This document shows, piece by piece, positions 8,674-61,644 of a stretch of 64,000 nt of DNA. The notes beneath the pieces were generated by a model. That model saw only the letters and a program-made list of their open reading frames with translations, had not been told where the DNA came from and did not search any database. The stretch is from Neisseria animalis. Its GTDB lineage: Bacteria > Pseudomonadota > Gammaproteobacteria > Burkholderiales > Neisseriaceae. The stretch is from NCBI RefSeq assembly GCF_900636515.1, contig NZ_LR134287.1:930001-994000 (forward strand), in the 5' to 3' direction. Position numbers and translations under genes: made by a program. Each line of letters starts with the position of its first letter. Position 1 is the stretch's first letter.

Positions 8674-8823
8674 TTGATTTATCGGGAATATGCTCAAAAT
8701 TTGCTTGAGACCATATTTTATCCGCTACCCATATGATGCTTCATGTATGGAGAAAGTTTGCCCGATACATAGAGTTTGAGTTTTTTGAAGAAACGACAAT
8801 ACACGGTATCGATATATTGAAAA

Positions 8824-8930
8824 TATAGTCATTTAAAATAAGAATGATACAGCGTTGCTTTGCCTTGCCGTACTATGTGTACTGTCTACGGCTTCGCTGC
8901 CTTGTCTCATTCTTATTTTATTCGACTATA
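8824..8930 (-). repeat. Correia-like repeat, copy 3
   Basis: 107-bp copy in reverse orientation, one base different from consensus in the core (CTGTCTACGGC). It separates nlpD from the decayed cassette. Confidence 0.9.
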
Positions 8931-8970
8931 AATTTTGCGTTAGGGTAAAAGCGGCAGATTTCTTCAACCT

Positions 8971-13000: not shown

Positions 13001-13913
13001 CGGTGGGGTGGTTGTGGGTTTCCACTTTCATGATGATGTGGGTGTCTTCTTCGTGGAAGCGGTAGGCTTGGTTTTCACCGGCGTGCGGGTAGAAGCGTTC
13101 GATTTTCGCGCCTTCGATGACCGACGAATTGTCTTTATAGGCGACTACGGTGCCTTCCGGATGGGCTTCGTGGGTGTCGCGGATCATGCGGAACAGGGAT
13201 TTCGGCTGCTTTTCGCCGTTGAGGATGAAATCCGCGTTGAAGATTTTGTGGCGGCAGTGTTCGCTGTTGGCTTGGGCGAACATCATCAGCTCGACATCGC
13301 TCGGATTGCGGTTTAATGCCTGATAGTTTTCCACCAGATAATCGATTTCGTCGGCGGATAAGGCCAAGCCCAATTCGCTGTTGGCTTTGACCAAGGCTGC
13401 TTTGCCTTGCGCCAATACGTCGACGGTAGAGAAAGTTTCCGACTCGATATGGCGGAATAATTGCGCCGCCGCGCCGATGTCGGCCAACACGCTTTCGGTC
13501 ATGCGGTCGTGCAGCAGATCCGCCCACTGCTGTTTTTGCCCATCGTTCAGACGGCCTTTCAGCCAAACCGCCGTACCGCGTTCGATGCGCCCGATTTCAG
13601 ACAGGCCGCAGTTGTGTGCAATGTCGGTGGCTTTGGAAGTCCAAGGGGAAATCGTGCCGATGCGCGGGGTAATCAGAAACAAATGCAGGCCGTCTGAAGC
13701 GGCAGGCACTTCAGCCACGCTTTGCGCGTCGAGCAGGGCGTGCAGTTTTTCGACGGCGGCCGCGTCTAAAGCGTTTTCACTGCCGACAAAATACCAAAAC
13801 TCGCTTTCCAGTTCCACTTCGGGCAAACCGGCTGCGGCGGCTTTTTTCAGCAGTTTTTCAACACGGAAATCAGACAGTGCGGCAACACCGCGCAGGGGCA
13901 AAACAACAGACAT
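10023..13913 (-). CDS. purL: Phosphoribosylformylglycinamidine synthase
   Basis: Converts FGAR to FGAM in purine synthesis, with glutamine as ammonia donor. 1,296 residues, the large single-chain form (E. coli 1,295). The start MSVVLPLRG at 13913 is preferred over an ATG five codons upstream because it matches the family start. Order: PurS-like N-terminal domain, linker, two AIRS-like synthetase halves ([19 protein letters not shown] near 300, [15 protein letters not shown] near 670), and a C-terminal glutaminase with Cys in LGVCNGCQM and the His/Glu pair in MMPHPERV. Monocistronic. Confidence 0.98.
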
Positions 13914-14098
13914 AGATTCAGCTCTCAAATGCGGTTGGAAAAAGGGGGATTATACGCTGAAACGGCGGGGAACTGTTGATAATTTGTCAGCACGAAAATG
14001 ACGGCTTGGGGAAGGCGTATCATATCGGAATAGCGGGCGGCTGCTTCTTAATCCGTTTGAATAAAATACTGCATTATGGTAGTTTTCGTTCAGACAGA
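13914..14098. other. purL-glnB intergenic region, left part
   Basis: 185 bp between the divergent purL and glnB genes, before repeat copy 4. It is mildly AT-rich. I see no coding frame, no clear purine-repressor site and no strong promoter pair, though both genes need promoters here or inside the repeat. Confidence 0.4.
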
Positions 14099-14618
<520 letters not shown>

Positions 14619-14640
14619 GCTGCATGATTGAACAAGCGGA

Positions 14641-14682
14641 AAAGGCCGTCTGTAAAATACCTGTTTTGCAGACGGCCTTTAT
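14641..14682 (+). terminator. Terminator of glnB (inverted uptake sequences)
   Basis: AAAGGCCGTCTGTAAAA faces TTTTGCAGACGGCCTTT, starting 22 bp past the glnB stop. Confidence 0.85.
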
Positions 14683-14711
14683 GGTTTGTTATTCGGCATA
14701 AACAGTTGAAA

Positions 14712-14818
14712 TATAGTCGAATAAAATAAGAATGAGACAAGGCAGCGAAGCCGCAGACAGTACACATAGTACGGCAAGGCAAAGCAACGCTGTATCATTC
14801 TTATTTTAAATGACTATA
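14712..14818 (+). repeat. Correia-like repeat, copy 5
   Basis: 107-bp copy in + orientation, consensus sequence. The junction with flanking DNA makes TATAAT at 14815-14820. With terminators on both sides it fills most of the 363-bp gap between glnB and the convergent cysN. Confidence 0.9.
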
Positions 14819-14915
14819 ATTTGAGTTTTAAAGAATGCGGGTCGGGTTGGTTCAATCGGTATTTGTGCCGGTGTTATGAGGCGTTGGGAAAGGATTCCAA
14901 GCGGTTTGTTTGGAT

Positions 14916-14960
14916 AAAAGGCCGTCTGTAAAACAACCAATTTTACAGACGGCCTTTTAT
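14916..14960. terminator. Terminator of cysN (inverted uptake sequences)
   Basis: AAAAGGCCGTCTGTAAAA faces TTTTACAGACGGCCTTTT, 22 bp past the cysN stop on the minus strand. Symmetric, so it works in both directions. Confidence 0.85.
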
Positions 14961-14981
14961 CGGTTTGGACGCCAAAGTTCG

Positions 14982-16292
14982 TTAAATTTCAAAGCTGTCC
15001 GCTTGATGATCCGCGCGAATCATGCCGGCGGCGACGGTGTGGTTGGTGGCTTCGTCAATCAGGATAAATGCGCCGGTGGCGGGGTTTTCGCCGTAAGTGG
15101 TGGCGGCCAGCGGCTGTTGGGTTTTGAGGCTGACGTGGCCGATGTCGTTGAGCTTGAGTTCGGTGGCGGATTGGACTTGGCTTAAGGTGTTCACGTCCCA
15201 AACATAGGCGATTTCGCTGATTTTGACGGCGGTGGTCTGCGTGGTGTGTTTGAGCAGGTATTTGCGGCGCAGATTGAGCGGTGTTTCGTCAAACCAGCAG
15301 AGTGCGGCTTGGTATTGCTGGTTGGGAACGGTTTGGCTGCCGGCGGCAACGATGCTGTTGCCGCGCGAGATGTCGAGGTCGGTATCGAGCGTAATGGTCA
15401 ATACTTCTCCTGCTTCGGCGGTTTCGGTTTTGCCGTCGGGGTTGTAGATTTCGGCGATTTTGGCGGTTTGTCCGCCGGGCAGGACTTTGATTTCGTCGCC
15501 GGTTTTCAGACGGCCTGCTTCGAGGCGGCCTTGGTAGCCGCGGAAATCGTCGCTGCTGCTGCCGTCTTGGCGGGCAACGCGCTGTACGGGGAAGTGTGCG
15601 GCGAGTGAGGCGGCATCGTTGCGGGAAACGGGCAGGCTTTCGAGCAGGGGGAGCAGTGGCAGGCCGGTGTACCAAGGGGTGCGCGTGCTTTTGTTGACGA
15701 TATTGTCGCCCTGCAGTGCGCTGATGGGCAGGAAATGTACGGCGGCTTTGAGGCCGATTTGCTGCGCCAGTGCGGTATAGGCTTCGGTAATGGCTTGATA
15801 TTTGGCTTCGTCGAAATCGAGCAGGTCGAGTTTGTTGACGGCAACGATGATGTGGGGGCAGCCGAGGAGCTTCAAAATGGCGCTGTGGCGTTTGGTTTGC
15901 GGCAGCAATACGGGTGTGCCGCTGCTGAAATCGACACGGGTGGCGTCCACTAAAACGATGGCGGCATCGGCGGTGGATGCGCCTGTTACCATGTTGCGGG
16001 TGTATTGTTCGTGGCCGGGGGTGTCGGCGATGATGAATTTGCGTTTCGGTGTGGCGAAATAGCGGTAGGCTACGTCGATGGTGATGCCTTGTTCGCGCTC
16101 GGCGGCGAGGCCGTCGGTGAGGCTGGCGAAGTCGGGTGTTTCGCCGTTGGCGGCGGCATGGTCGAGTTTGGCGAGTTGGTCGGTCAGCAGGGTTTTGCTG
16201 TCGTAGAGCAGACGGCCGATGAGGGTGGATTTGCCGTCGTCAACGCTACCGGCGGTGATGAAGCGCAGGAGCGGGGCGGTGGATGCGGTCAT
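14982..16292 (-). CDS. cysN: Sulfate adenylyltransferase subunit 1 (GTPase)
   Basis: GTPase subunit that drives ATP sulfurylase in sulfate activation. 436 residues from the ATG at 16292, which follows AAAGGAATC; an ATG at 16346 has no ribosome site. The GTPase motifs are intact: GSVDDGKST (P-loop), DTPGHEQYT, NKLD. An EF-Tu-like beta-barrel region follows. There is no C-terminal APS kinase domain. Oddly, the partner gene cysD is not adjacent (mnmA lies divergently upstream), although cysD-cysN are normally an operon. CysD must be elsewhere or absent. Confidence 0.93.
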   Translation of the reverse strand: MTASTAPLLRFITAGSVDDGKSTLIGRLLYDSKTLLTDQLAKLDHAAANGETPDFASLTDGLAAEREQGITIDVAYRYFATPKRKFIIADTPGHEQYTRNMVTGASTADAAIVLVDATRVDFSSGTPVLLPQTKRHSAILKLLGCPHIIVAVNKLDLLDFDEAKYQAITEAYTALAQQIGLKAAVHFLPISALQGDNIVNKSTRTPWYTGLPLLPLLESLPVSRNDAASLAAHFPVQRVARQDGSSSDDFRGYQGRLEAGRLKTGDEIKVLPGGQTAKIAEIYNPDGKTETAEAGEVLTITLDTDLDISRGNSIVAAGSQTVPNQQYQAALCWFDETPLNLRRKYLLKHTTQTTAVKISEIAYVWDVNTLSQVQSATELKLNDIGHVSLKTQQPLAATTYGENPATGAFILIDEATNHTVAAGMIRADHQADSFEI

Positions 16293-16467
16293 GTGGAGAT
16301 TCCTTTGTTGCTTGATTGGGCATAACTTTAGCGAGGCCGTCTGCAAATGGGAAAGAATGGTTTGTTTGGTGTAAAGATGTTTTTGTTATATTAAAGTGGA
16401 TATGGGATGTGGCGGGTGCTAAAATCGTGCTTTAAATCGGCAGTTCTTGCCTTAATATACAGATGTT

Positions 16468-17568
16468 ATGAAAACGGATACTTTGCAAAACATCATCGTC
16501 GGGCTCTCCGGCGGTGTGGATTCTTCGGTTACTGCCGCGCTGCTGCAACGTCAGGGGCATCAGGTGCGCGGTGTGTTTATGCAGAACTGGGAAGATGATG
16601 ATAATGACGAATACTGCAGCATCAAGCAGGATTCGTTTGATGCGATTGCGGTGGCGGATATTGTCGGTATCGATATTGATATTGTGAATTTTGCCGCGCA
16701 GTATAAGGATAATGTATTTGCTTATTTTTTAAAGGAATACAGCGCCGGCCGCACGCCGAATCCCGATGTGTTGTGTAATGCGGAAATCAAATTCAAATGT
16801 TTTCTGGATTATGCCGTGGAGCAGGGGGCGGATGTGATTGCGACCGGACATTATGCGCGCAAGGAAGTGCGCGACGGTGTGCATTATCTGCTCAAAGGTT
16901 TGGATAACAATAAAGACCAAAGCTATTTTCTCTACCGCTTGAAACCGTTCCAACTGGAGCGGGCGATTTTCCCGTTGGGCGACTTGGAAAAGCCGGAAGT
17001 ACGCCGTTTGGCGGAAGAGTTTGGATTGCCGACGGCGGCAAAAAAAGACAGCACGGGTATTTGCTTTATCGGCGAGCGGCCGTTTCGTGAGTTTTTGCAG
17101 AAATACCTGTCTACCAATAACGGTAAGATGGTTACGCCGGAAGGTAAGGTAGTCGGCGAGCACGTCGGGTTGATGTTTTATACGTTGGGACAGCGCAAGG
17201 GCTTGGGCATCGGCGGTGCGGGCGAGCCGTGGTTTGTGGCGGCAAAAGATTTGGCCAAAAACGAATTGATTGTGGTGCAGGGGCACGATCACCCGCTGCT
17301 TTATACGCGCAGTTTGGTGATGAATGATTTGAGCTTTACGCTGCCGGAGCGTCCGAAAGCGGGGCGTTATACCTGCAAAACCCGTTACCGTATGGCGGAC
17401 GCGGCGTGCGAGTTGCGCTATTTGGACGATGAAACGGCGGAATTGATGTTTGACGAGCCGCAATGGGCGGTAACGCCGGGGCAGTCTGCCGTATTGTATG
17501 ATGGCGATGTCTGCTTGGGCGGTGGTGTGATTATTGCGACTGACAAGCCGGTTATCGTTACCGGATAA
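16468..17568 (+). CDS. mnmA: tRNA-specific 2-thiouridylase
   Basis: Thiolates U34 of tRNA-Lys, -Glu and -Gln using ATP and sulfur relayed from IscS/TusE. 366 residues, normal length. The PP-loop is GLSGGVDSS near residue 12. The two catalytic cysteines are in [12 protein letters not shown] (near 103) and [12 protein letters not shown] (near 200). The C-terminal barrels follow. Single gene; the ATG at 16468 has only a weak purine-rich stretch upstream. Confidence 0.97.
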
Positions 17569-17670
17569 ATGATGGGGCAGGCAGGCGGCATGGTATAACG
17601 GCGGCTTGGTGTCGCCTTTTATGCTTGCTTGATTTGATTGTGTGCTGCTGCCTGTAAATATTATTGTTTG

Positions 17671-17777
17671 TATAGTCATTTAAAATAAGAATGATACAGC
17701 GTTGCTTTGCCTTGCCGTACTATGTGTACTGTCTGCGGCTTCGCTGCCTTGTCTCATTCTTATTTTATTCGACTATA
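17671..17777 (-). repeat. Correia-like repeat, copy 6
   Basis: 107-bp consensus copy in reverse orientation, between the convergent mnmA and murI genes. Confidence 0.9.
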
Positions 17778-17781
17778 AATC

Positions 17782-17817
17782 AAAAGGCCGTCTGTAATTT
17801 TGCAGACGGCCTTTTTT
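17782..17817. terminator. Terminator (inverted uptake sequences)
   Basis: AAAAGGCCGTCTGTAA faces TTTTGCAGACGGCCTTTT, ahead of the murI stop on the minus strand. Confidence 0.8.
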
Positions 17818-17863
17818 GCGGATACGGGTTCGGGCGTTTGATAATGGTTTGCAAAGCAGCCGA

Positions 17864-18673
17864 TCAGCCCAGCGCAACCATTTCAATCTGTTCCATGCTG
17901 CGGCCCAAGAAGCGTTCGCCGATGGTGCGGAAGCGCAGCGGAATGTCGCTGACGTAAAAACGGTAGTCCGGAGACGGGTTGTCGGTATTGAGCAAACCGG
18001 CGGAAGCGAGGGCTTTGGCGGTGGCTTCGGCGGTGGTAATGGCGGAGTCAACCAGCGTAATGTCGGGTGCTTCCTGACTAATCAGCGGCTTGAGCAGCGG
18101 AAAATGGGTGCAGCCCAAAACCAAGGTATCAATACCGTCTACCAACAGCGGCTTGAGATATTCGCGGACGGTCAGGCGGGTCACTTCATGATCGAGCCAG
18201 CCTTCTTCCACCAACGGCACTAAAAGCGGCGCGGCTTGGGTGCGTACCAGCGTATCGGCGTTGCTGCTGTGGATGGCGCGGGCGTAAGCATTGCTGTTTA
18301 CGGTGGTATTGGTGGCGATGATGCCGATTTTATTGTTGGCGGTAGTGTCCAGCGCTGCTTGCGCGCCTGCGGAAATCACGTCCAGTACGGGCATTCCGCC
18401 TGCTTTTTGGCGGATTTTGCTTCCGGCAGTGGCGGCAATGGTGTTGCAGGCGATGACCAAGGCTTTTACATCATGCTCCAGCAGGAAATCGATAATCTGC
18501 ATGGAAAAGGTTTCGATGGTGGCGCGAGACTTCGTGCCGTAGGGAACGCGGGCGGTGTCGCCGAAATAAACAATGTTCTCCATCGGCAAACGCTCCATCA
18601 GGGCGCGGACATTGGTCAGGCCGCCGACACCGGAATCAAATACTCCGATGGGGCGTTGGGTGTTGGTCGTCAT
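17864..18673 (-). CDS. murI: Glutamate racemase
   Basis: Supplies D-glutamate for peptidoglycan. 269 residues from the ATG at 18673 (MTTNTQRPIGVFDSGVGG); an upstream ATG at 18730 would add 19 residues unlike the family. The two catalytic cysteines are present in VIACNTIAA and VLGCTHFPLL, and the FDSGVGGL and GDTARVPYG motifs are intact. Monocistronic. Confidence 0.97.
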   Translation of the reverse strand: MTTNTQRPIGVFDSGVGGLTNVRALMERLPMENIVYFGDTARVPYGTKSRATIETFSMQIIDFLLEHDVKALVIACNTIAATAGSKIRQKAGGMPVLDVISAGAQAALDTTANNKIGIIATNTTVNSNAYARAIHSSNADTLVRTQAAPLLVPLVEEGWLDHEVTRLTVREYLKPLLVDGIDTLVLGCTHFPLLKPLISQEAPDITLVDSAITTAEATAKALASAGLLNTDNPSPDYRFYVSDIPLRFRTIGERFLGRSMEQIEMVALG

Positions 18674-18863
18674 GTTGCAGTACCGTAGTGATAATGCAGG
18701 TATTTTACACGCTTCGCTCGGCGGTTTCATCTGCTTTGCAAAGGTTCTGATGCAGTATGCTGTATTTTGCAGACGGCATTTAGCGAAACTTTAGCATTTG
18801 CGTGGTTTTCAAACTGCCGTGATTGACGGATAATTAACCCTTTATACATCAATAAAAGGCAGG

Positions 18864-19337
18864 ATGATGACCGACAATGCCGCTGTTTCCCGTTTTTTGC
18901 CCGATGAAGAGGCCACTTTGGCACTTGGTGCAGAGTGGGCGCAATCGCTCGCCGCGCCGCTGGTCGTGTATCTGCAAGGTGATTTGGGTGCGGGAAAAAC
19001 CACGTTTACACGCGGTTTGTTGCGCGGCTTGCGGCATGAAGGGGCAGTAAAAAGCCCGACTTATGCCATTGTCGAATCTTATCCTTTCGATGGTTTTACG
19101 CTGCATCATTTCGATTTATACCGTTTTTCTATGCCTGAAGAATGGGAAGATGCCGGTTTGGACGATTTGTTCGGAGCAGATTGCGTTTGCCTGATTGAGT
19201 GGCCGCAACAAGGCGGAGAATTTACGCCGGCTGCCGATATTACCGTATCATTGGAACACGCCGGAGAAGGCCGCCGTTTCACCGCCGCAGCACATACCGA
19301 TAAGGGCCGGAAAAGTTTGGAAGCATGGTTAAACTAA
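18864..19337 (+). CDS. tsaE: tRNA threonylcarbamoyladenosine ATPase TsaE
   Basis: P-loop ATPase that works with TsaB-TsaD to make t6A37 on ANN-decoding tRNAs. 157 residues. Walker A is GDLGAGKTTFTRG near 39-51, followed by SPTYAIVESY and HFDLYRF, which define the YjeE/TsaE family, and LIEWPQQG. Two adjacent ATGs (18864, 18867) follow AAAAGGCAGG; either may start. The end overlaps the amiC start by 13 bp, so the two are translationally coupled, a common order in proteobacteria. Confidence 0.96.
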   Translation: MMTDNAAVSRFLPDEEATLALGAEWAQSLAAPLVVYLQGDLGAGKTTFTRGLLRGLRHEGAVKSPTYAIVESYPFDGFTLHHFDLYRFSMPEEWEDAGLDDLFGADCVCLIEWPQQGGEFTPAADITVSLEHAGEGRRFTAAAHTDKGRKSLEAWLN

Positions 19338-23110: not shown

Positions 23111-23217
23111 TATAGTCATTTAAAATAAGAATGATACAGCGTTGCTTTGCCTTGCCGTACTATGTGTACTGTCTGCGGCTTCGCTGCCTTGTCTCATTCT
23201 TATTTTATTCGACTATA
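23111..23217 (-). repeat. Correia-like repeat, copy 7
   Basis: 107-bp consensus copy in reverse orientation. With several single uptake sequences (about 23255, 23370, 23385) it makes up the 330-bp gap between ridA and apaH; I see no gene there. Confidence 0.9.
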
Positions 23218-23426
23218 AAACATCATCGTATCCTGCCGATGGGGGCGGTACGGTTTTGCAGACGGCCTCAATACCGGTTGCAGCCTGTTGTCCCGTGTTT
23301 TGATTTGACGGCACTTTATCCGCAGGAAATTGATGATTGAAGAAGGGCAGGCTGACGCTGCCTGCATTGTTCAGACGGCCTAAGCCGTCTGAAATTTATT
23401 GTTGATAACAGATACTGATAAAAATT

Positions 23427-35713: not shown

Positions 35714-35820
35714 TATAGTCATTTAAAATAAGAATGATACAGCGTTGCTTTGCCTTGCCGTACTATGTGTACTGTCTGCGGCTTCGCTGCCTTGTCTCAT
35801 TCTTATTTTATTCGACTATA
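35714..35820 (-). repeat. Correia-like repeat, copy 8
   Basis: 107-bp consensus copy in reverse orientation, in the gap between the convergent phoU and phoR genes. Confidence 0.9.
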
Positions 35821-47294: not shown

Positions 47295-47739
47295 TTGAAT
47301 CAAATAACAAAACCTCTGCACAAAGCCTTATTTTTGGAATTGGCGGCATTGATTATGATGGCGCACCATAGCAGTGAAATAAGTATTCCTGCGAAGGAAG
47401 ATATTGAAAAAGAAGAGTCGACGGCTTTGTTATCTTTTTTGAGGAAAATTGATGTTAATGAAGCAAATATGTTAGAAGAATATGCAAAAGAGAGTGGAGC
47501 TGTAAAATTTTTCAACAAAATGTTGTTTAATTCTGCTGATTTTCATTATTCTATCAGTAAGGGAAAAGCAAAAAAAGTATCTTTGGCACAATCTATGTGG
47601 ATTAATGGCGATGGTAGCATACTTTATAGTGGAGATGGTTTTGAGCGTTATGATGCTAAGCTTGAGGGAAATAATGATAAGAAAAAAGGTTTTCTTACCT
47701 TATTAACTTTAATGAAAGCAAACATTAGGAGGGTTTTGG
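47295..47739 (+). pseudogene. TerB-like gene, 5' fragment (interrupted by transposon)
   Basis: Encodes about 148 residues of a TerB-like protein before the transposon at 47740; read-through into the element gives an aberrant tail to 47783. Joined to 51578-51983 with one target copy removed, the frame runs ...ANIRRVLA + SHTEDEAIRKEV... without a break. The N-terminal FLELAALIMMAHHSS is typical of TerB-like helical domains. The start is also odd: the ribosome site AGGAG (47278) is spaced for an ATG at 47290, but that reads ATG TTT TGA. One extra T would restore the frame; otherwise TTG at 47295 is used. Confidence 0.75.
47732..47739 (+). repeat. Target-site duplication, left copy
   Basis: GGTTTTGG directly before the left inverted repeat, identical to 51578-51585. 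Eight bases is the size expected for IS1595-family insertion. Confidence 0.9.
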
Positions 47740-47763
47740 CGCCATTATGTAGCACTTGCACAA
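47740..47763 (+). repeat. Left terminal inverted repeat
   Basis: 24 bp beginning CGCCATTATGTAGCAC. Its TTGCAC at 47756-47761 can act as the -35 box for the endonuclease. Confidence 0.9.
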
Positions 47764-47784
47764 ATCGAAATAACTTGCTATAAA
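47756..47784 (+). promoter_or_regulatory. Predicted promoter of the endonuclease gene
   Basis: TTGCAC (47756-47761, inside the terminal repeat), 17-bp spacer, TATAAA (47779-47784), 32 bp before the start codon. Confidence 0.55.
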
Positions 47785-47815
47785 TATACTGAATTGGAAA
47801 CCAAAGGGGTATATT

Positions 47816-48664
47816 ATGCAACAAAACACCGATTTAATCATTGATACAATTACCAAATACATACCCAAAGAGCTATCAAGATGGGAATTGGTCGGTTTTT
47901 TAAATAAACGGAAAGAGATATTTGCCTTTGGTAGCGATTCCAAAATTATAGGAAGATTGTTTGAGGTTCTTGCGTTTGACATTCTTTATCAAACGGCAGA
48001 AGAATTGGGGTATATATTATGTGAATCCGAAAAACAAACTGTATACCCCGATTATTTTTTTATAAAACCAGATGGTAGAAAGATAGCAATCGATATTAAA
48101 ACAACATATCGCGATGACAAGAAAGGCCGGATTAAATTTACGGCGGGAAGTTTTACTAGCTACCTAAGAAATGGTACAAAAAATATCACGGGGAGTTATG
48201 ATGAATACGACGCTCACTATATTCTGGGTGTTGTATATACTCGAGAAAGCAAAGCCACCAAAGGAATGACTCCACTAGACGGATTGAGCGACATAACAGC
48301 TGCTTATAAAGATGTGGAGGTTTTTATACAGGAGAAATTTAGAATTTGTGGTGACAAAAAAGGCAGTGGAAATACGGATAATATAGGAACAATAGCTGCC
48401 ACGAACATTAAACCATTTATTTTTGGTGCTGGCCCATTTGCATTTCTTGGCAAGGAAATTTTCCATGATTATTGGTCAAACCATCCTAGATACACGGACA
48501 GCAAGGAAATCAAAGCTTCTTTATATAATGATTTGCTGGGATATATCAATTGGATTGGCCAAAAAGATGATGTTAAAGCGCAAGAATTAATAGAGCTCTA
48601 TAATAAATACTTGGATGAATACAAAAAAGAATTTCTAACTACGCCTTACACTACAGAGAAATGA
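47816..48664 (+). CDS. EcoRV-like type II restriction endonuclease
   Basis: 282 residues; EcoRV has 245. The catalytic PD...DxK motif is intact: Asp79 (YPDYFFIKPDG), then Asp93 and Lys95 in KIAIDIKTTYR, corresponding to EcoRV Asp74, Asp90 and Lys92. The match continues through KFTAGSFTSYLRNGTKNI and GDKKGSGNTDNIGTI, the DNA-contact loops of EcoRV. It most likely cuts GATATC (inference from homology). ATG follows AAAGGGGTATAT. It converges on the methyltransferase, with six bases between the stops. An unmatched C-terminal extension of some 25 residues is lysine/glutamate-rich. Confidence 0.93.
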   Translation: MQQNTDLIIDTITKYIPKELSRWELVGFLNKRKEIFAFGSDSKIIGRLFEVLAFDILYQTAEELGYILCESEKQTVYPDYFFIKPDGRKIAIDIKTTYRDDKKGRIKFTAGSFTSYLRNGTKNITGSYDEYDAHYILGVVYTRESKATKGMTPLDGLSDITAAYKDVEVFIQEKFRICGDKKGSGNTDNIGTIAATNIKPFIFGAGPFAFLGKEIFHDYWSNHPRYTDSKEIKASLYNDLLGYINWIGQKDDVKAQELIELYNKYLDEYKKEFLTTPYTTEK

Positions 48665-48683
48665 AAGCGGTTATCCGCTTTCA
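48662..48683. terminator. Hairpin overlapping both R and M stop codons
   Basis: TGAAAGCGG, TTAT loop, CCGCTTTCA: a perfect nine-base stem that includes the endonuclease TGA and the last codons and stop of the methyltransferase. Probably a bidirectional terminator. Confidence 0.65.
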
Positions 48684-49576
48684 TTTCTTAAATTAAAATT
48701 CGCCTCACTAACCACCAGAGCTTCTGTCATTTTGCTCCTATTAGCCTCTTTTGCACCAACATGGTAAAAATGCTCGGTCGTTACAAGAACGCCGTTCGTC
48801 CACTCCTGCATATGAGTATTTTTTCGGTACTGGTTCTCATACCACATGCTAAATGCATAGCCAGCCGGTCCGTTTTGGGCAAGTTTAGCCAAAAGACTTG
48901 CAGAAGATTCACACCATGCATCGTAATAACCATCATAACGACCGATATACGGCGGGTCTAAGTAGACAAAGTCACCTTTTTTCATCATAGCAAAAGCATC
49001 TGTGAAAGGTGCATGAACAAACAGCCATTCTTTACCCTTTAAAATACTCTCAACCCACGCTACTTGATTAACGATTTTTGTAATAAGTGCTTTTTGAAAT
49101 CTTTCAGGCTTTCTACCAAAAGGCACGTTGTACATCCCTTTGTTGTTAAATCTCATCATGCCATTAAAATTAGACCTTTGCAAAAACAAAAAATCCAATG
49201 AATTTGGGCTCTCATTGAATCTATCCCTAACCTCATAATAATAAGAGTTTTTATCCGCTGGGGTGCGCGCTAATTTACGAGATTCAGCCTCTAAGAAGCG
49301 TCGAACATCTTCAGATGTTATGTTTTGAGTTTGAATATCCTGATAAAATTTGATGATATGTGGGTTAGTATCGCTAAAAACAGCTTTTTGTGGCTCCAGA
49401 TTAAAACCGACGACACCAGAACCCATAAAAGGTTCGAAGTAGGTCCCCGCACCATCCCATTTAACTGATTCTGCAATAAAAGGAACTAATTTTGTTTTAA
49501 TCCCCTGTATTTTAAGTGGGGGAACTTTTGCTGTGGTAATTTTCTTTGGCAACACTAGGTTTTCTCTATTTAACAT
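48671..49576 (-). CDS. EcoRV-like DNA adenine methyltransferase (Dam family)
   Basis: 301 residues, alpha-class N6-adenine methyltransferase close to M.EcoRV in sequence. The SAM motif is FEPFMGSGVVGFN near 48-60, and catalytic motif IV is DPPY with Asp207 in YLDPPYIGRYDGY. Shared landmarks with M.EcoRV: KIQGIKTKLVPFI at the N-terminus, FLFLQRSNFNGMMRFN, and EHFYHVGAKEANRSKMTEAL (20 residues). It should protect GATATC. Its start overlaps the upstream DUF6471-like gene by 11 bp, so the two are cotranslated. Confidence 0.94.
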   Translation of the reverse strand: MLNRENLVLPKKITTAKVPPLKIQGIKTKLVPFIAESVKWDGAGTYFEPFMGSGVVGFNLEPQKAVFSDTNPHIIKFYQDIQTQNITSEDVRRFLEAESRKLARTPADKNSYYYEVRDRFNESPNSLDFLFLQRSNFNGMMRFNNKGMYNVPFGRKPERFQKALITKIVNQVAWVESILKGKEWLFVHAPFTDAFAMMKKGDFVYLDPPYIGRYDGYYDAWCESSASLLAKLAQNGPAGYAFSMWYENQYRKNTHMQEWTNGVLVTTEHFYHVGAKEANRSKMTEALVVSEANFNLRNESG

Positions 49577-49808
49577 TTAATTCTTCACACCCAATCACTC
49601 TAAGCACCTGCACCATAAAAATCGCCCCAAAAGTACCTCTGGCGATTTTATTGCTGATGTTTTGTGGGCTTTCATGGATGCCTTGTGCTGCTAGTCTTTC
49701 TGAAATTTCGACATAGCTGATGTTACGTCGGGCGATTTCTGCTTTTAAAAGACCGCGTACATAACCTTTCCAATAAGCGTCATCTAAAACTGTTGTTTGC
49801 TCAGTCAT
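49566..49808 (-). CDS. DUF6471-like small protein, possible R-M controller
   Basis: 80 residues from ATG 49808 (MTEQTTVLDDAYWKGYV). The pattern WKGYVRGLLKAEIARRNISY, then ISERLAAQG, then ISNKIARGTF is that of DUF6471 proteins, which look like a helix-turn-helix fold. A 95-residue frame from 49853 has no ribosome site. It is translationally coupled to the methyltransferase and sits next to a palindrome at 49894-49911. A control protein (C-protein-like) role is inference. Confidence 0.75.
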   Translation of the reverse strand: MTEQTTVLDDAYWKGYVRGLLKAEIARRNISYVEISERLAAQGIHESPQNISNKIARGTFGAIFMVQVLRVIGCEELNVK

Positions 49809-49844
49809 AATTATTTCTCTGAATAACACTAAATATATGTTTTC

Positions 49845-49911
49845 ATTATACATGATGAAAAAAGTATTTGCAAATATATATTATTGTGATATAATCATCG
49901 TATATGATGAT
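49845..49911. promoter_or_regulatory. Divergent promoters sharing one -35 box, with operator palindrome
   Basis: The self-complementary TTGCAA at 49868-49873 serves both strands. Rightward (transposase): 16-bp spacer to TATAAT at 49890-49895, with an extended -10 TG. Leftward (DUF6471-methyltransferase): 17-bp spacer to TATAAT (plus strand ATTATA, 49845-49850). ATCATC-GTATAT-GATGAT at 49894-49911 overlaps the transposase -10/start region; a related ATGATGA lies at 49852-49858. Confidence 0.65.
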
Positions 49912-49955
49912 ATAAACACATATTGGTTGCTAATTAATTATTATTGGAGAAACCC

Positions 49956-50996
49956 ATGCCACAACACTTCCTCCTCTCTGCTGAAGCACGCAATCTATCA
50001 CCGATTGCTATTGCTCGCATGAGTGAATATGAGGCGGTGATGACAATGAAGAAATTGCGTTGGGGTGAGGGTAAGGATGTAATATGCCCTCGTTGTGGCA
50101 AAAAGCATGAGGCTTATTACATTAAATCTCGTAAACAGTGGCAATGCAAGGAATGCAATTACCGCTTTTCAGTGACAGCGGGTACGTTATTTGCCCATCA
50201 CAAATTGCCACTTCGTGATATTTTATTTGCCTGTAGCTTGTATGTGAATGCAGCCAAGGGTATTTCTGCCTTACAGATTGCTCGTGATTTAAATGTACAA
50301 TACAAAACCGCTTTTGTATTACTGCATAAAATCAAAGAAGCATTAAAGGTACATAAACAGCGAGAAACGATGCAGCTGAGTGGCGTGGTACACATGGACG
50401 CTACTTATGTCCATTCCAGCCAAAAACCCAAGAACAAAAAGAGTGAGCGTGTTGATAGACGTTTAAAACAACACGAAAACCCGCTAAAACGTGCGATTTT
50501 GGTTATACGGGATAGTTTTGCCAAGCAAGATGATGAACAAAACACCAAACAAATTGGCGCAAGAAACACCATTGCCTTTATCGCCAAATCTGAAAACAGC
50601 AAGGTTGTTAATCAGCTTGCCAACAAGCATATCACCAAAGGCAGTACCATCCATACCGATGAAAGCCCAGCTTATGACAACCTGATTTATTTTCACGACC
50701 TAAAGCGCGTCAACCATCAAAAGGAATATCGCTCTGATGCTGGTGTGACCAATAACTTAGCAGAAAGTTATTTTAGTCGCTTTAAGCGTATGTACTACGG
50801 GCAAGTTCATAAAATGAACAACACCTACCTATACGAATACGCCAATGAAATTGCTTATCGTGAAGATACTCGCCGTCTTAGTAATGGTGTCATTTTTAAT
50901 GATGTGGTATCCAAATGCCTAACCAGTTTACCTTCTGATGATTGGCGTGGCTACTGGCAAGGCAATAAAAAGCGCGTGGAAACTTTAGCGGCGTAG
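49956..50996 (+). CDS. IS1595-family (ISXO2-like) transposase
   Basis: 346 residues from ATG 49956, six bases after TTGGAGA. An N-terminal zinc ribbon CPRCGKKH...QCKEC (near 43-66) is followed by a helix-turn-helix region and a DDE-type domain: Asp in VVHMDATYVHSS, Asp in IHTDESPAYDNL, and Glu in NNLAESYFSRFKRMY. Length and motifs look complete, so it may be active. Own promoter at 49868-49895. Located centrally in the element rather than at its edge. Confidence 0.94.
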   Translation: MPQHFLLSAEARNLSPIAIARMSEYEAVMTMKKLRWGEGKDVICPRCGKKHEAYYIKSRKQWQCKECNYRFSVTAGTLFAHHKLPLRDILFACSLYVNAAKGISALQIARDLNVQYKTAFVLLHKIKEALKVHKQRETMQLSGVVHMDATYVHSSQKPKNKKSERVDRRLKQHENPLKRAILVIRDSFAKQDDEQNTKQIGARNTIAFIAKSENSKVVNQLANKHITKGSTIHTDESPAYDNLIYFHDLKRVNHQKEYRSDAGVTNNLAESYFSRFKRMYYGQVHKMNNTYLYEYANEIAYREDTRRLSNGVIFNDVVSKCLTSLPSDDWRGYWQGNKKRVETLAA

Positions 50997-51058
50997 TTTT
51001 ATGATTTCGATAGATTGCAATAACTTACGATAAATAACAATTCATTATTGGAGTATAT

Positions 51059-51499
51059 ATGGCTCAATCTCATGTTACAAGCGGTATCGCCAACAAAATC
51101 AATCTCCTAAATAAACACAAGCAAGCTTTACTTAAGCAAATCCAAGATATCGATCAACAAATCAGCATTCTCACCCAAGCAGCTTACATCATGGGTGAGG
51201 CCGAACAACTACCAAGGCTACGCAGCTCAGTGTTTAATCAAAGCATCAAGACACTTGTTGTACAGGTGCTTAAGCAAGCAACACAGCCCTTATCCGCCAA
51301 TGAGATTACAGAACAGGCGGTGTCACTTGACAACCAACCACAATCAAACCAAGAGCCCATAGAAATCACTGCCAAACCCCTAAAAGCTACTCGCAACGCA
51401 CTGAATTTTTTAATCAGCGACGGTGTTGTTAGTAAAATTGGCTTAAAGCGGGGTGAAGTAAAGTATCTATGGGCATCAAATCAACAAAACCTTGAATAA
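51059..51499 (+). CDS. Transposon passenger: coiled-coil plus winged-helix-like protein
   Basis: 146 residues, ATG after TTGGAGTATAT. An N-terminal coiled coil (NKINLLNKHKQALLKQIQDI, about 12-45) precedes a region that looks like a winged helix (LVVQVLKQATQPLSANEITE and NALNFLISDGVVSKIGL). It lies 62 bp behind the transposase, likely on the same transcript, and is followed by a hairpin terminator. I do not know the family. It could regulate or assist transposition or the R-M genes. Confidence 0.75.
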   Translation: MAQSHVTSGIANKINLLNKHKQALLKQIQDIDQQISILTQAAYIMGEAEQLPRLRSSVFNQSIKTLVVQVLKQATQPLSANEITEQAVSLDNQPQSNQEPIEITAKPLKATRNALNFLISDGVVSKIGLKRGEVKYLWASNQQNLE

Positions 51500-51518
51500 T
51501 CAGCTACATTCACAAATA

Positions 51519-51543
51519 AAAGCAGCCGTTTGGCTGCTTTTTA
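51519..51543 (+). terminator. Terminator inside the transposon right end
   Basis: AGCAGCC, GTTT loop, GGCTGCT, with AAA before and TTTT after; 20 bp past the passenger gene stop. Confidence 0.85.
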
Positions 51544-51553
51544 GTGGTAGTTC

Positions 51554-51577
51554 TTGTGCAGGTGCTACATAATGGCG
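51554..51577 (-). repeat. Right terminal inverted repeat
   Basis: 24 bp, reverse complement of the left repeat with one mismatch (C for T at position 17). Confidence 0.9.
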
Positions 51578-51585
51578 GGTTTTGG
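51578..51585 (+). repeat. Target-site duplication, right copy
   Basis: GGTTTTGG, identical to 47732-47739. Confidence 0.9.
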
Positions 51586-51983
51586 CGTCGCATACGGAAG
51601 ATGAAGCCATCCGTAAAGAAGTAATGATGAAATTGGTTGGGGAAGGGTTTGATATTCTTAAAATTACGCCCGATGTTATCCGCTACATGATGGTTTCCTT
51701 GCCGACAATCAGTGAAGGGATTTTGCTGAAAACTGCTGAGGACGTTATTTCATATAAGGGAAAAGAAGCAGATGACTTGACCGAACGTGATAAAAAAATC
51801 ATCGTCTTTGAATTAATCGGGGCTGGCTTCAGCAGCGGTGCATTTGAAGACAGCGAACGCAAACTGCTCGAACATATCTGCCAATTATTGAAAGTGGATA
51901 GTGAGTATATCGAAGAGTTTACCGAAGTGATGGGTAGATTGGCTGCAGTCAACAAAGAAGTAGCGGATTTGATTAACGAATAA
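51578..51983 (+). pseudogene. TerB-like gene, 3' fragment
   Basis: The C-terminal 130 or so residues of the interrupted gene, continuing in frame from 47739 once the element and one target copy are removed. It contains FELIGAGFSSGAFEDSERKL and LLKVDSEYIEEF, which match the acidic TerB-like helical core. A TTG at 51582 could start an N-truncated protein, but no good ribosome site precedes it. The stop is 11 bp before the next gene, which may now depend on other promoters. Confidence 0.75.
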
Positions 51984-53052: not shown

Positions 53053-53159
53053 TATAGTCGAATAAAATAAGAATGAGACAAGGCAGCGAAGCCGCAGACA
53101 GTACACATAGTACGGCAAGGCAAAGCAACGCTGTATCATTCTTATTTTAAATGACTATA
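53053..53159 (+). repeat. Correia-like repeat, copy 9
   Basis: 107-bp consensus copy in + orientation, 44 bp past the 337-residue gene. Its right arm contains an ATG (53151) in frame with the next gene. Confidence 0.9.
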
Positions 53160-53556: not shown

Positions 53557-53663
53557 TATAGTCATTTAAAATAAGAATGATACAGCGTTGCTTTGCCTTG
53601 CCGTACTATGTGTACTGTCTGCGGCTTCGCTGCCTTGTCTCATTCTTATTTTATTCGACTATA
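53557..53663 (-). repeat. Correia-like repeat, copy 10
   Basis: 107-bp consensus copy in reverse orientation. The rest of the 360-bp gap (53470-53556, 53664-53786) is AT-rich and holds no gene I can see. Confidence 0.9.
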
Positions 53664-56855: not shown

Positions 56856-56962
56856 TATAGTCGAATAAAATAAGAATGAGACAAGGCAGCGAAGCCGCAG
56901 ACAGTACACATAGTACGGCAAGGCAAAGCAACGCTGTATCATTCTTATTTTAAATGACTATA
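56856..56962 (+). repeat. Correia-like repeat, copy 11
   Basis: 107-bp consensus copy in + orientation. Its right junction makes TATAAT at 56959-56964, directed towards trmB. The rest of the 371-bp gap up to trmB holds an inverted GCCGTCTGAA pair and no gene. Confidence 0.9.
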
Positions 56963-61423: not shown

Positions 61424-61530
61424 TATAGTCATTTAAAATAAGAATGATACAGCGTTGCTTTGCCTTGCCGTACTATGTGTACTGTCTGCGGCTTCGCTGC
61501 CTTGTCTCATTCTTATTTTATTCGACTATA
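61424..61530 (-). repeat. Correia-like repeat, copy 12
   Basis: 107-bp consensus copy in reverse orientation, between ppiD and psd. Confidence 0.9.
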
Positions 61531-61644
61531 TAACCGGTTCGTGCGGCTTGGTTCTTATGAACGGGGGCTAATTCTGCACGTAGGTATGCTTTTTCCGCTA
61601 TAATAGCGTCCGTTTAACATCAAACCGTTTTGAAGGACGCAGTT

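Follow-up and report, generated by a model that had tools for sequence, protein, structure and literature searches.

The subject of this analysis is a window of 64,000 nucleotides from Neisseria animalis (contig NZ_LR134287.1, positions 930,001 to 994,000; complete 2.24-Mb genome). Positions without a further handle are those of the window; L and G numbers are our own handles for loci and genomes. At 47740-51577 lies an intact IS1595-type transposon of 3838 bp, which encloses a transposase, an EcoRV-like type II restriction-modification (R-M) pair and two further genes (Table 1). It has the terminal inverted repeats and the 8-bp target duplication by which the IS1595 family is recognised, all five of its frames are open, and its G+C content is 0.386, against 0.495 in the 10-kb flanks. 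A preliminary description of this DNA had claimed such repeats and a duplication around an ISXO2/IS1595-type transposase with four other genes, two of them an EcoRV-like endonuclease and its adenine methyltransferase, and these claims were borne out: the 24-bp repeats pair at 23/24, the duplication GGTTTTGG is perfect over 8 bp, the transposase is recognised by Pfam PF12762 (E=2.2e-38; 132 bits, cut-off 27), PF12760 (50.8 bits, cut-off 25.4) and NF033547 (140 bits, cut-off 75), and the R-M pair by PF09233, alignment with EcoRV from the PDB, PF02086 and TIGR00571.

When the element and one copy of the duplication were deleted in silico, a single open frame of 280 amino acids resulted. Of the 42 homologues of the restored protein, 38 reach 100% query coverage, and P0121 (42%; the sole one aligned residue by residue) is continuous across the restored junction. 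No congener offers an empty site: the 5' part of the host gene had no match in the other 45 of the 46 genomes of the genus compared. Because the genus has no second copy of the host gene, the case for the empty site is drawn from homologues farther afield. Duplication and restored gene together show that the last step at this site was the insertion of the entire bounded unit. At the level of sequence, the bounds, the duplication, the empty site and the gene content are established, as are the kinship and the cargo exchange described below.

Table 1. Features of the transposon and of the gene it interrupts, in window coordinates
Feature	Position	Strand	Basis or remark
Interrupted host gene, 5' part	47295..47731	+	open frame and homologues after in-silico deletion
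Target duplication, left copy, 8 bp, GGTTTTGG	47732..47739	.	sequence match to right copy
Terminal inverted repeat, left, CGCCATTATGTAGCACTTGCACAA	47740..47763	+	24 nt
EcoRV-family type II restriction endonuclease, 282 aa	47816..48664	+	PF09233 E=7.1e-52; EcoRV PDB chains E=1e-50
Dam/D12-class N6-adenine methyltransferase, 301 aa	48671..49576	-	PF02086 E=2.1e-36
DUF6471 gene, 95 aa as listed	49566..49853	-	PF20075 E=1.8e-26
Promoter-like sites, divergent, on common palindrome TATTTGCAAATA (49865-49876)	49865..49911	.	consensus matches only
IS1595-family (ISXO2-like) transposase, 345 aa	49959..50996	+	from ATG; start in list of open reading frames is TTG, 49944
Accessory protein, 146 aa	51059..51499	+	clustering; Pfam matches sub-threshold only
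Terminal inverted repeat, right	51554..51577	-	23/24 complementary to left repeat
Target duplication, right copy, GGTTTTGG	51578..51585	.	8/8 identical to left copy
Interrupted host gene, 3' part	51586..51983	+	open frame and homologues after in-silico deletion

Residues 18-248 of the endonuclease align with EcoRV (E=1e-50), and YPDY (the PD motif, from residue 77), IDIK (from 92) and GSGNT (from 183), the last of which we take to hold the recognition-loop residues, all fall within matching positions. The methyltransferase gene, convergent with the endonuclease gene across a 6-bp gap, scores above the cut-off of TIGR00571 and matches PADLOC MTase_II at E=4e-109. A recognition site of the EcoRV kind, GATATC, is predicted for the pair; one such site lies inside the element, at 51146-51151, and the window holds 3 against 8.15 +/- 2.71 in shuffles.

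The DUF6471 gene probably starts at an inner ATG ending at 49808, and its product is a candidate regulator; it probably forms one operon with the methyltransferase gene, since the two overlap by 11 bp. The region between DUF6471 and transposase genes carries 19 promoter-like sites, a modest excess over the 12.6 +/- 3.2 of shuffles, and an 18-bp imperfect palindrome (16/18) at 49894-49911, 3' of TATTTGCAAATA, making 49865-49911 a candidate operator. In the transposase, D147, D234 and E269, presumably the catalytic D, D and E, are invariant in an alignment of four family members including that of the window; a crude scan for the catalytic motifs failed to pick up the first one in 2 of the 6 other transposases scanned. 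The AlphaFold2 model of the accessory protein has a long N-terminal helix followed by a winged helix (pLDDT 80.4, pTM 0.54).

Elsewhere in the window, a repeat of about 107 bp occurs in many copies at 98-100% identity (8822-8932, 14099-14205, 14712-14818, 23111-23220, 35714-35820, 53053-53159, 53557-53663, 56856-56962, 61424-61533, and others).

Elements with the same ends

Four aligned transposases were used to scan GTDB contigs, which yielded 190 stretches and 146 relatives; the best 80 were kept, representing 73 distinct loci. An element was accepted where a repeat pair of at least 21/24 and an exact 8-bp duplication surrounded the transposase in a search made without a consensus; loci with matches of only 16-19/24 or with runs of N (L092, L109, L113, L120, L136, L140) were dropped. 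This left 35 bounded elements of 2.9-11.6 kb, namely 33 of the 73 scanned loci, the window element and a second element of the same genome, E2. Agreement of the duplication copies within one element (35/35) is a condition of this selection; copies taken from different elements agreed in 0 of 1190 ordered pairs. The common repeat and duplication in this family are, judged from the compared ends, more than chance. The preliminary description would have been undermined by repeats that bound no such segment elsewhere; comparable segments are bounded in many other genomes, which speaks in its favour. That the window element belongs to a family with other cargoes is a point beyond that description. 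Among 83 genomes of the family Neisseriaceae the terminal repeat was found at up to 3 mismatches in 7, and a reversed control gave 0 in the genomes listed.

Going by record titles and by the usual family placement of their genera, we take the 35 elements to comprise 14 from Pasteurellaceae, 8 from beta-proteobacteria, 4 from methanotrophs, 4 from other gamma-proteobacteria, 1 from Arcobacter, 2 from Neisseriaceae and 2 titled Pseudomonas stutzeri NCTC11607 with backbones of the Pasteurellaceae type. Clustering of their 233 non-transposase frames placed relatives of the 146-aa accessory gene (124-197 aa) in 35/35 elements, an XRE-type regulator in 15/35 (one member checked) and a DUF6471-like gene in 8/35, the window element included; a second IS1595-type gene was found in 16/35, exactly the 16 of the Pasteurellaceae type, and one of these genes was domain-checked (PF12762, E=2e-49). 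In a class-wide sample a transposase at E<=1e-80 was present in 1 other of 369 genomes, so that the vector is uncommon outside its favoured families. Movement within the family appears to have been recent, given that one contig of a metagenome-assembled genome of Methylobacter sp. KS41 holds two 100% identical copies of 3243 bp (L125 and L126) with different 8-bp duplications.

The N. animalis genome itself contains two sister elements. E2 (G000:C1:221637-229162; L062:11638-19163) is 7526 bp long, has the duplication AAATTTGC and carries a type III mod/res pair, whose mod gene has 11.6 copies of the 5-bp repeat TGCTG near its start, as in phase-variable genes. Inside E2, at L062:13655, stands a further copy of the terminal repeat (2 mismatches) that is oriented like the left end; 13655-19163, including the R-M genes, could therefore be a smaller unit. 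The transposase end of E2 is 90.6% identical over 1963 bp to Avibacterium. E3, from G000:C1:909012 (L061:4013-11514), comprises a transposase, a regulator and a further type III pair; a search of the same genome for its right end detected none. Over 5759 bp, the R-M part of E3 matches Bergeriella denitrificans at 99.6% identity, and its left end is 94.2% identical over 2074 bp to Conservatibacter. Conservatibacter, which carries adhesin-like cargo, also matches the Bergeriella right end, at 95.1% identity over 1793 bp. On the strength of the 90.6%, 94.2% and 95.1% identities, transfer of ends between Neisseriaceae and Pasteurellaceae is the conclusion that we draw. A second type III mod/res pair adjoins E2 (L062:7334-11405).

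Some further records deserve mention. Elements like those of Pasteurellaceae or Arcobacter occur under the names Pseudomonas stutzeri NCTC11607 (L121, L141), Candidatus Gracilibacteria (L120) and Anaerolineales (L118), and the labels or bins of these records may be wrong. The IMG/VR contigs L149, L150 and L151 have one copy of the terminal repeat each. A 1707-bp unit at L067:7815-9521 (genome G043) has both repeats, a 7/8 duplication and no transposase; a ClpP/SDH-type protease gene, its only cargo, shares 95.6% identity with cargo of the Haemophilus element L114. A candidate left end in G037 (L065:2792) was put down to chance, as its duplication is 8/8 but its repeat match is poor.

Cargo and its exchange

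Recognised R-M genes, of very different types, are present in 23/35 elements, and L090, with a motif only, is uncertain. For 13 the assignment rests on an individual Pfam scan (window, L070, L071, L077, L086, L102, L103, L105, L112, L115, L119, L121, L137) and for 10 on clustering, motifs and pooled tallies (L062, L076, L082, L083, L087, L093, L094, L095, L101, L111). The parts identified individually include EcoRV, HindVP, LlaJI, an EcoRI-type methyltransferase, type I M and S, and type III res. The pooled tally adds domains of FokI and XamI, the FokI domain presumably beside the D12 methyltransferase of L137. By group, R-M genes were found in 13/16 Pasteurellaceae-type, 7/8 beta-proteobacterial, 2/2 Neisseriaceae and 1/1 Arcobacter elements. 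At E<=1e-8, a set of 85 proteins, chosen by hand among the larger cargo frames, matched 388 PADLOC families, the commonest with 10 members; for 104 neighbouring proteins the figures were 81 families and 2 members. This control drew, for each element, on at most the 3 closest outside frames that reach 190 aa, and it includes the type III pair beside E2 and single matches such as DpdF and PsyrT.

Six pairs of elements from differently named hosts (L077/L141, L103/L105, L115/L137, L115/L121, L119/L120, L121/L137) have both ends conserved, at 75.8-95.7% identity, and no aligned base between them, the unaligned middles measuring 1.8-5.6 kb in the first partner. In L103 and L105, for instance, an LlaJI-type and a type III system respectively lie between ends that are 93.6% and 95.4% identical. 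The middle is partly aligned in three further pairs (L083/L112, L083/L114, L112/L114), and L125/L126 are identical throughout.

The preliminary description would also have been undermined by related strains that share the inserted genes without the inverted repeats. A relative of the pair lies inside a related element, which again speaks for that description; others occur on plasmids and in one genome of another genus. The former is found in Pasteurella langaaensis (L110), where relatives of both genes (endonuclease 57%, methyltransferase 69%) stand in the same convergent order inside a left repeat, between two IS1595-type genes, with a transposase at 52% to that of the window; the contig ends before the right repeat. 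A search of GTDB contigs with the endonuclease returned no relative; it was too narrow, having missed L110, which is present there, and is no evidence of absence. In the plasmid collection searched, relatives of the EcoRV R-M genes are mostly on small plasmids (12 records), and beside the relative of the R-M pair in another genus (G064, L047) the best match to the terminal repeat has 7 mismatches. Because relatives also occur without these repeats, the R-M genes are best regarded as passengers that are not fixed to the vector. A mobilizable 9.5-kb Acinetobacter plasmid (L143, NZ_CP156812.1) carries an EcoRV-like R-M pair and regulator beside a BrnT/BrnA pair.

Interpretation and rival explanations

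In our judgement the window element very probably is a unit transposon of the IS1595 superfamily and belongs to a family of vectors whose ends are conserved and whose R-M cassettes are exchangeable. The transposase would bring the two 24-bp ends together and integrate the 3.8-kb unit in its entirety, creating an 8-bp duplication, and it is in this manner that the element would have landed in the host gene. The frame of the vector would consist of the repeat, the transposase, the coiled-coil/winged-helix accessory gene and a small regulator gene, between which R-M genes, and sometimes others, are exchanged; the accessory protein may act as an end-binding or regulatory partner of the transposase. 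The presumed DUF6471-methyltransferase operon would be transcribed divergently from the transposase gene and towards the endonuclease gene, and the DUF6471 product would regulate the intergenic region common to both directions. Restriction would be active at GATATC, and loss of the R-M system would harm the cell, post-segregational killing thereby aiding persistence. As the route of cassette exchange we prefer homologous recombination between the conserved ends of co-resident elements, and the three family elements in this genome show that such elements do meet in one cell. The window element may still move at the present day and may owe some of its persistence to addiction.

A number of observations weigh against this reading, or narrow it. 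No copy identical in full to the window element was found anywhere. Among the other 40 scanned loci, 11 have repeats on both sides that lack an exact duplication or reach the contig end; in 26 the repeats occur on a single side or unpaired, and in 3 there are none at up to 5 mismatches. No R-M gene was recognised in 11/35 elements (L073, L114, L122, L123, L124, L125, L126, L129, L131, L132, L141; the small frames of L124-L126 were partly scanned), with L090 again resting on a motif; L073 has an adhesin, an OmpA-like protein and a glycosyltransferase, and a YadA-type trimeric autotransporter gene takes the place of R-M genes in L073:1407-11953 and L075:315-10715. The 8 elements from methanotrophs, the Granulosicoccaceae-type and an uncultured gamma-proteobacterium have R-M genes in 0/8, from which we conclude that R-M carriage marks part of the family and not all of it. 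The fold matches of the accessory protein, to winged-helix proteins, are weak (best E=4.6e-3). Finally, the genome retains 157 GATATC sites, the 4th lowest count among the 46 genomes of the genus; as counts in congeners that lack the endonuclease run from 24 to 966, the site is not clearly avoided, and avoidance as a sign of long residence was dropped.

A more specific view of the same family would make it a dedicated shuttle for R-M systems: the conserved IS1595-type ends would serve as a docking frame, into which whole cassettes would be swapped together with a regulator and the promoter region reading into the transposase gene, so that the incoming regulator decides when the vector jumps. 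It could jump in a new cell that still lacks the regulator, and no longer once the R-M system is established. Support comes from the breakpoints of the conserved ends and from the divergent promoter-like sites on a common palindrome; in L103/L105, L115/L137 and L121/L137 the conserved right end breaks off 4-7 bp short of the transposase start codon, and in L115/L121 just left of the regulator gene. We regard this view as unlikely.

The outer repeats might instead be those of a decayed composite of two insertion sequence (IS) copies, with an IS1595 IS and R-M genes as chance neighbours. The larger relatives lend this some colour, as the 16/35 elements with an IS1595-type gene at each end resemble an old composite, and E2 combines its internal repeat copy (L062:13655, 2 mismatches) with a transposase remnant near the right end. 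The window element, however, has one transposase and no internal repeat copy at up to 6 mismatches, and we rejected a composite for it on these grounds; a single perfect duplication encloses the entire unit, within a gene that can be restored, and a composite origin of the larger relatives would leave its present behaviour as a unit unchanged. Chance juxtaposition is accordingly very hard to credit. Arrival of the R-M pair by plasmid, or by natural transformation and homologous recombination, with the transposon uninvolved, is improbable as well. Plasmids are where most of the EcoRV R-M relatives in the collection searched reside, and Neisseriaceae and Pasteurellaceae are naturally transformable, but the match to the plasmid copies is confined to the methyltransferase region, at about 70% DNA identity, the plasmid copies have no transposase, and the duplication and restored gene point to whole-unit insertion as the last step. 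Transformation could still carry the transposon between cells and is in that sense compatible with a mobile unit.

There is some possibility, though we would not favour it, that the element once moved as a unit and has since become fixed and degenerate, its R-M genes being kept for defence alone. The genome holds no near-identical second copy, the next transposases being 61% and 60% identical, and its two other elements are partly decayed, E3 being without a detected right end. On the other side stand the five open frames, the 23/24 repeats, the 8/8 duplication and the retained catalytic residues of the window element; moreover, the nearest transposase among the records, from Moraxella sp. FZLJ2107, is 94% identical, which suggests recent spread of the vector.

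Relation to known systems and significance

Members of the IS1595 family that carry passenger genes (tIS; MTnSag1/tISSag10, tISCpe8) are known (Siguier et al. 2009, via PMC5704250), and the window element is filed among them. Like the tIS described in that source, it has an IS1595-type DDE transposase, inverted repeats of about 25 bp, 8-bp duplications and passenger genes; those carry antibiotic resistance and mobilisation genes (PMC5704250), whereas the window element has a complete type II R-M system and a conserved coiled-coil/winged-helix accessory gene. The position of the R-M pair inside 47740-51577 fits the definition of a tIS passenger, its dispensability for transposition being putative. 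ISApl4/Tn7560 (IS1016-type, Pasteurellaceae) likewise belongs to the IS1595 family and makes 8-bp duplications, at A/T-rich targets; as characterised there, ISApl4 is a 712-bp IS with 14-bp repeats, GGGGCTGTACTAGA, and cargo is found only between two IS copies (PMC12561309); its repeat is unrelated in sequence to that of the window element. In Acidithiobacillus caldus a type I system is reported upstream of an IS1595 element (PMC10214660).

Putative mobile R-M units flanked by imperfect inverted repeats and a short target duplication were reported by Furuta 2010 (via PMC3874152); compared through this secondary description, the present family adds an identified transposase, accessory gene and repeat consensus, and cargo exchange across genera. 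PaeR7I R-M genes were moved in E. coli by IS-encoded functions, where according to the account consulted host copies of IS1 or IS5 captured the plasmid (PMC3031569), whereas the R-M genes of the window are built into a unit transposon. Tn7-like transposons resemble the family in their variable cargo, largely of defence genes, but differ in transposase machinery and size, to go by the features reported in PMC8649781; a Pfam scan of the five window-element genes gave no match to TnsB/TnsC-type proteins, and the element is thus not Tn7-like. The small EcoRV plasmids of E. coli (NC_005019 and others) have an endonuclease of the same family (about 41% identity over 81%) and a Dam-type methyltransferase, but unlike the window element no transposase in the matching region. 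In the literature consulted, which besides the papers cited in this section comprised PMC6211672, PMC12242098, PMC3339403, PMC9296519 and PMC10359306, and in which Furuta 2010 and Siguier 2009 are represented by secondary description, no description of IS1595 vectors with exchangeable R-M cassettes as a family was found.

How R-M systems spread is disputed: they bear every sign of horizontal transfer, yet in one survey they were rare on plasmids and prophages (PMC4176335). The family described here offers a concrete vehicle, in the form of small autonomous transposons, and one that gene-wise annotation would miss, because in such annotation the transposase goes down as an IS and the R-M genes are counted as chromosomal. 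The ends of its members are common to Neisseriaceae and Pasteurellaceae at 90-95% DNA identity. With these ends defined, movement and addiction become directly testable, and the repeat consensus offers an easy way of probing for new R-M and defence genes.

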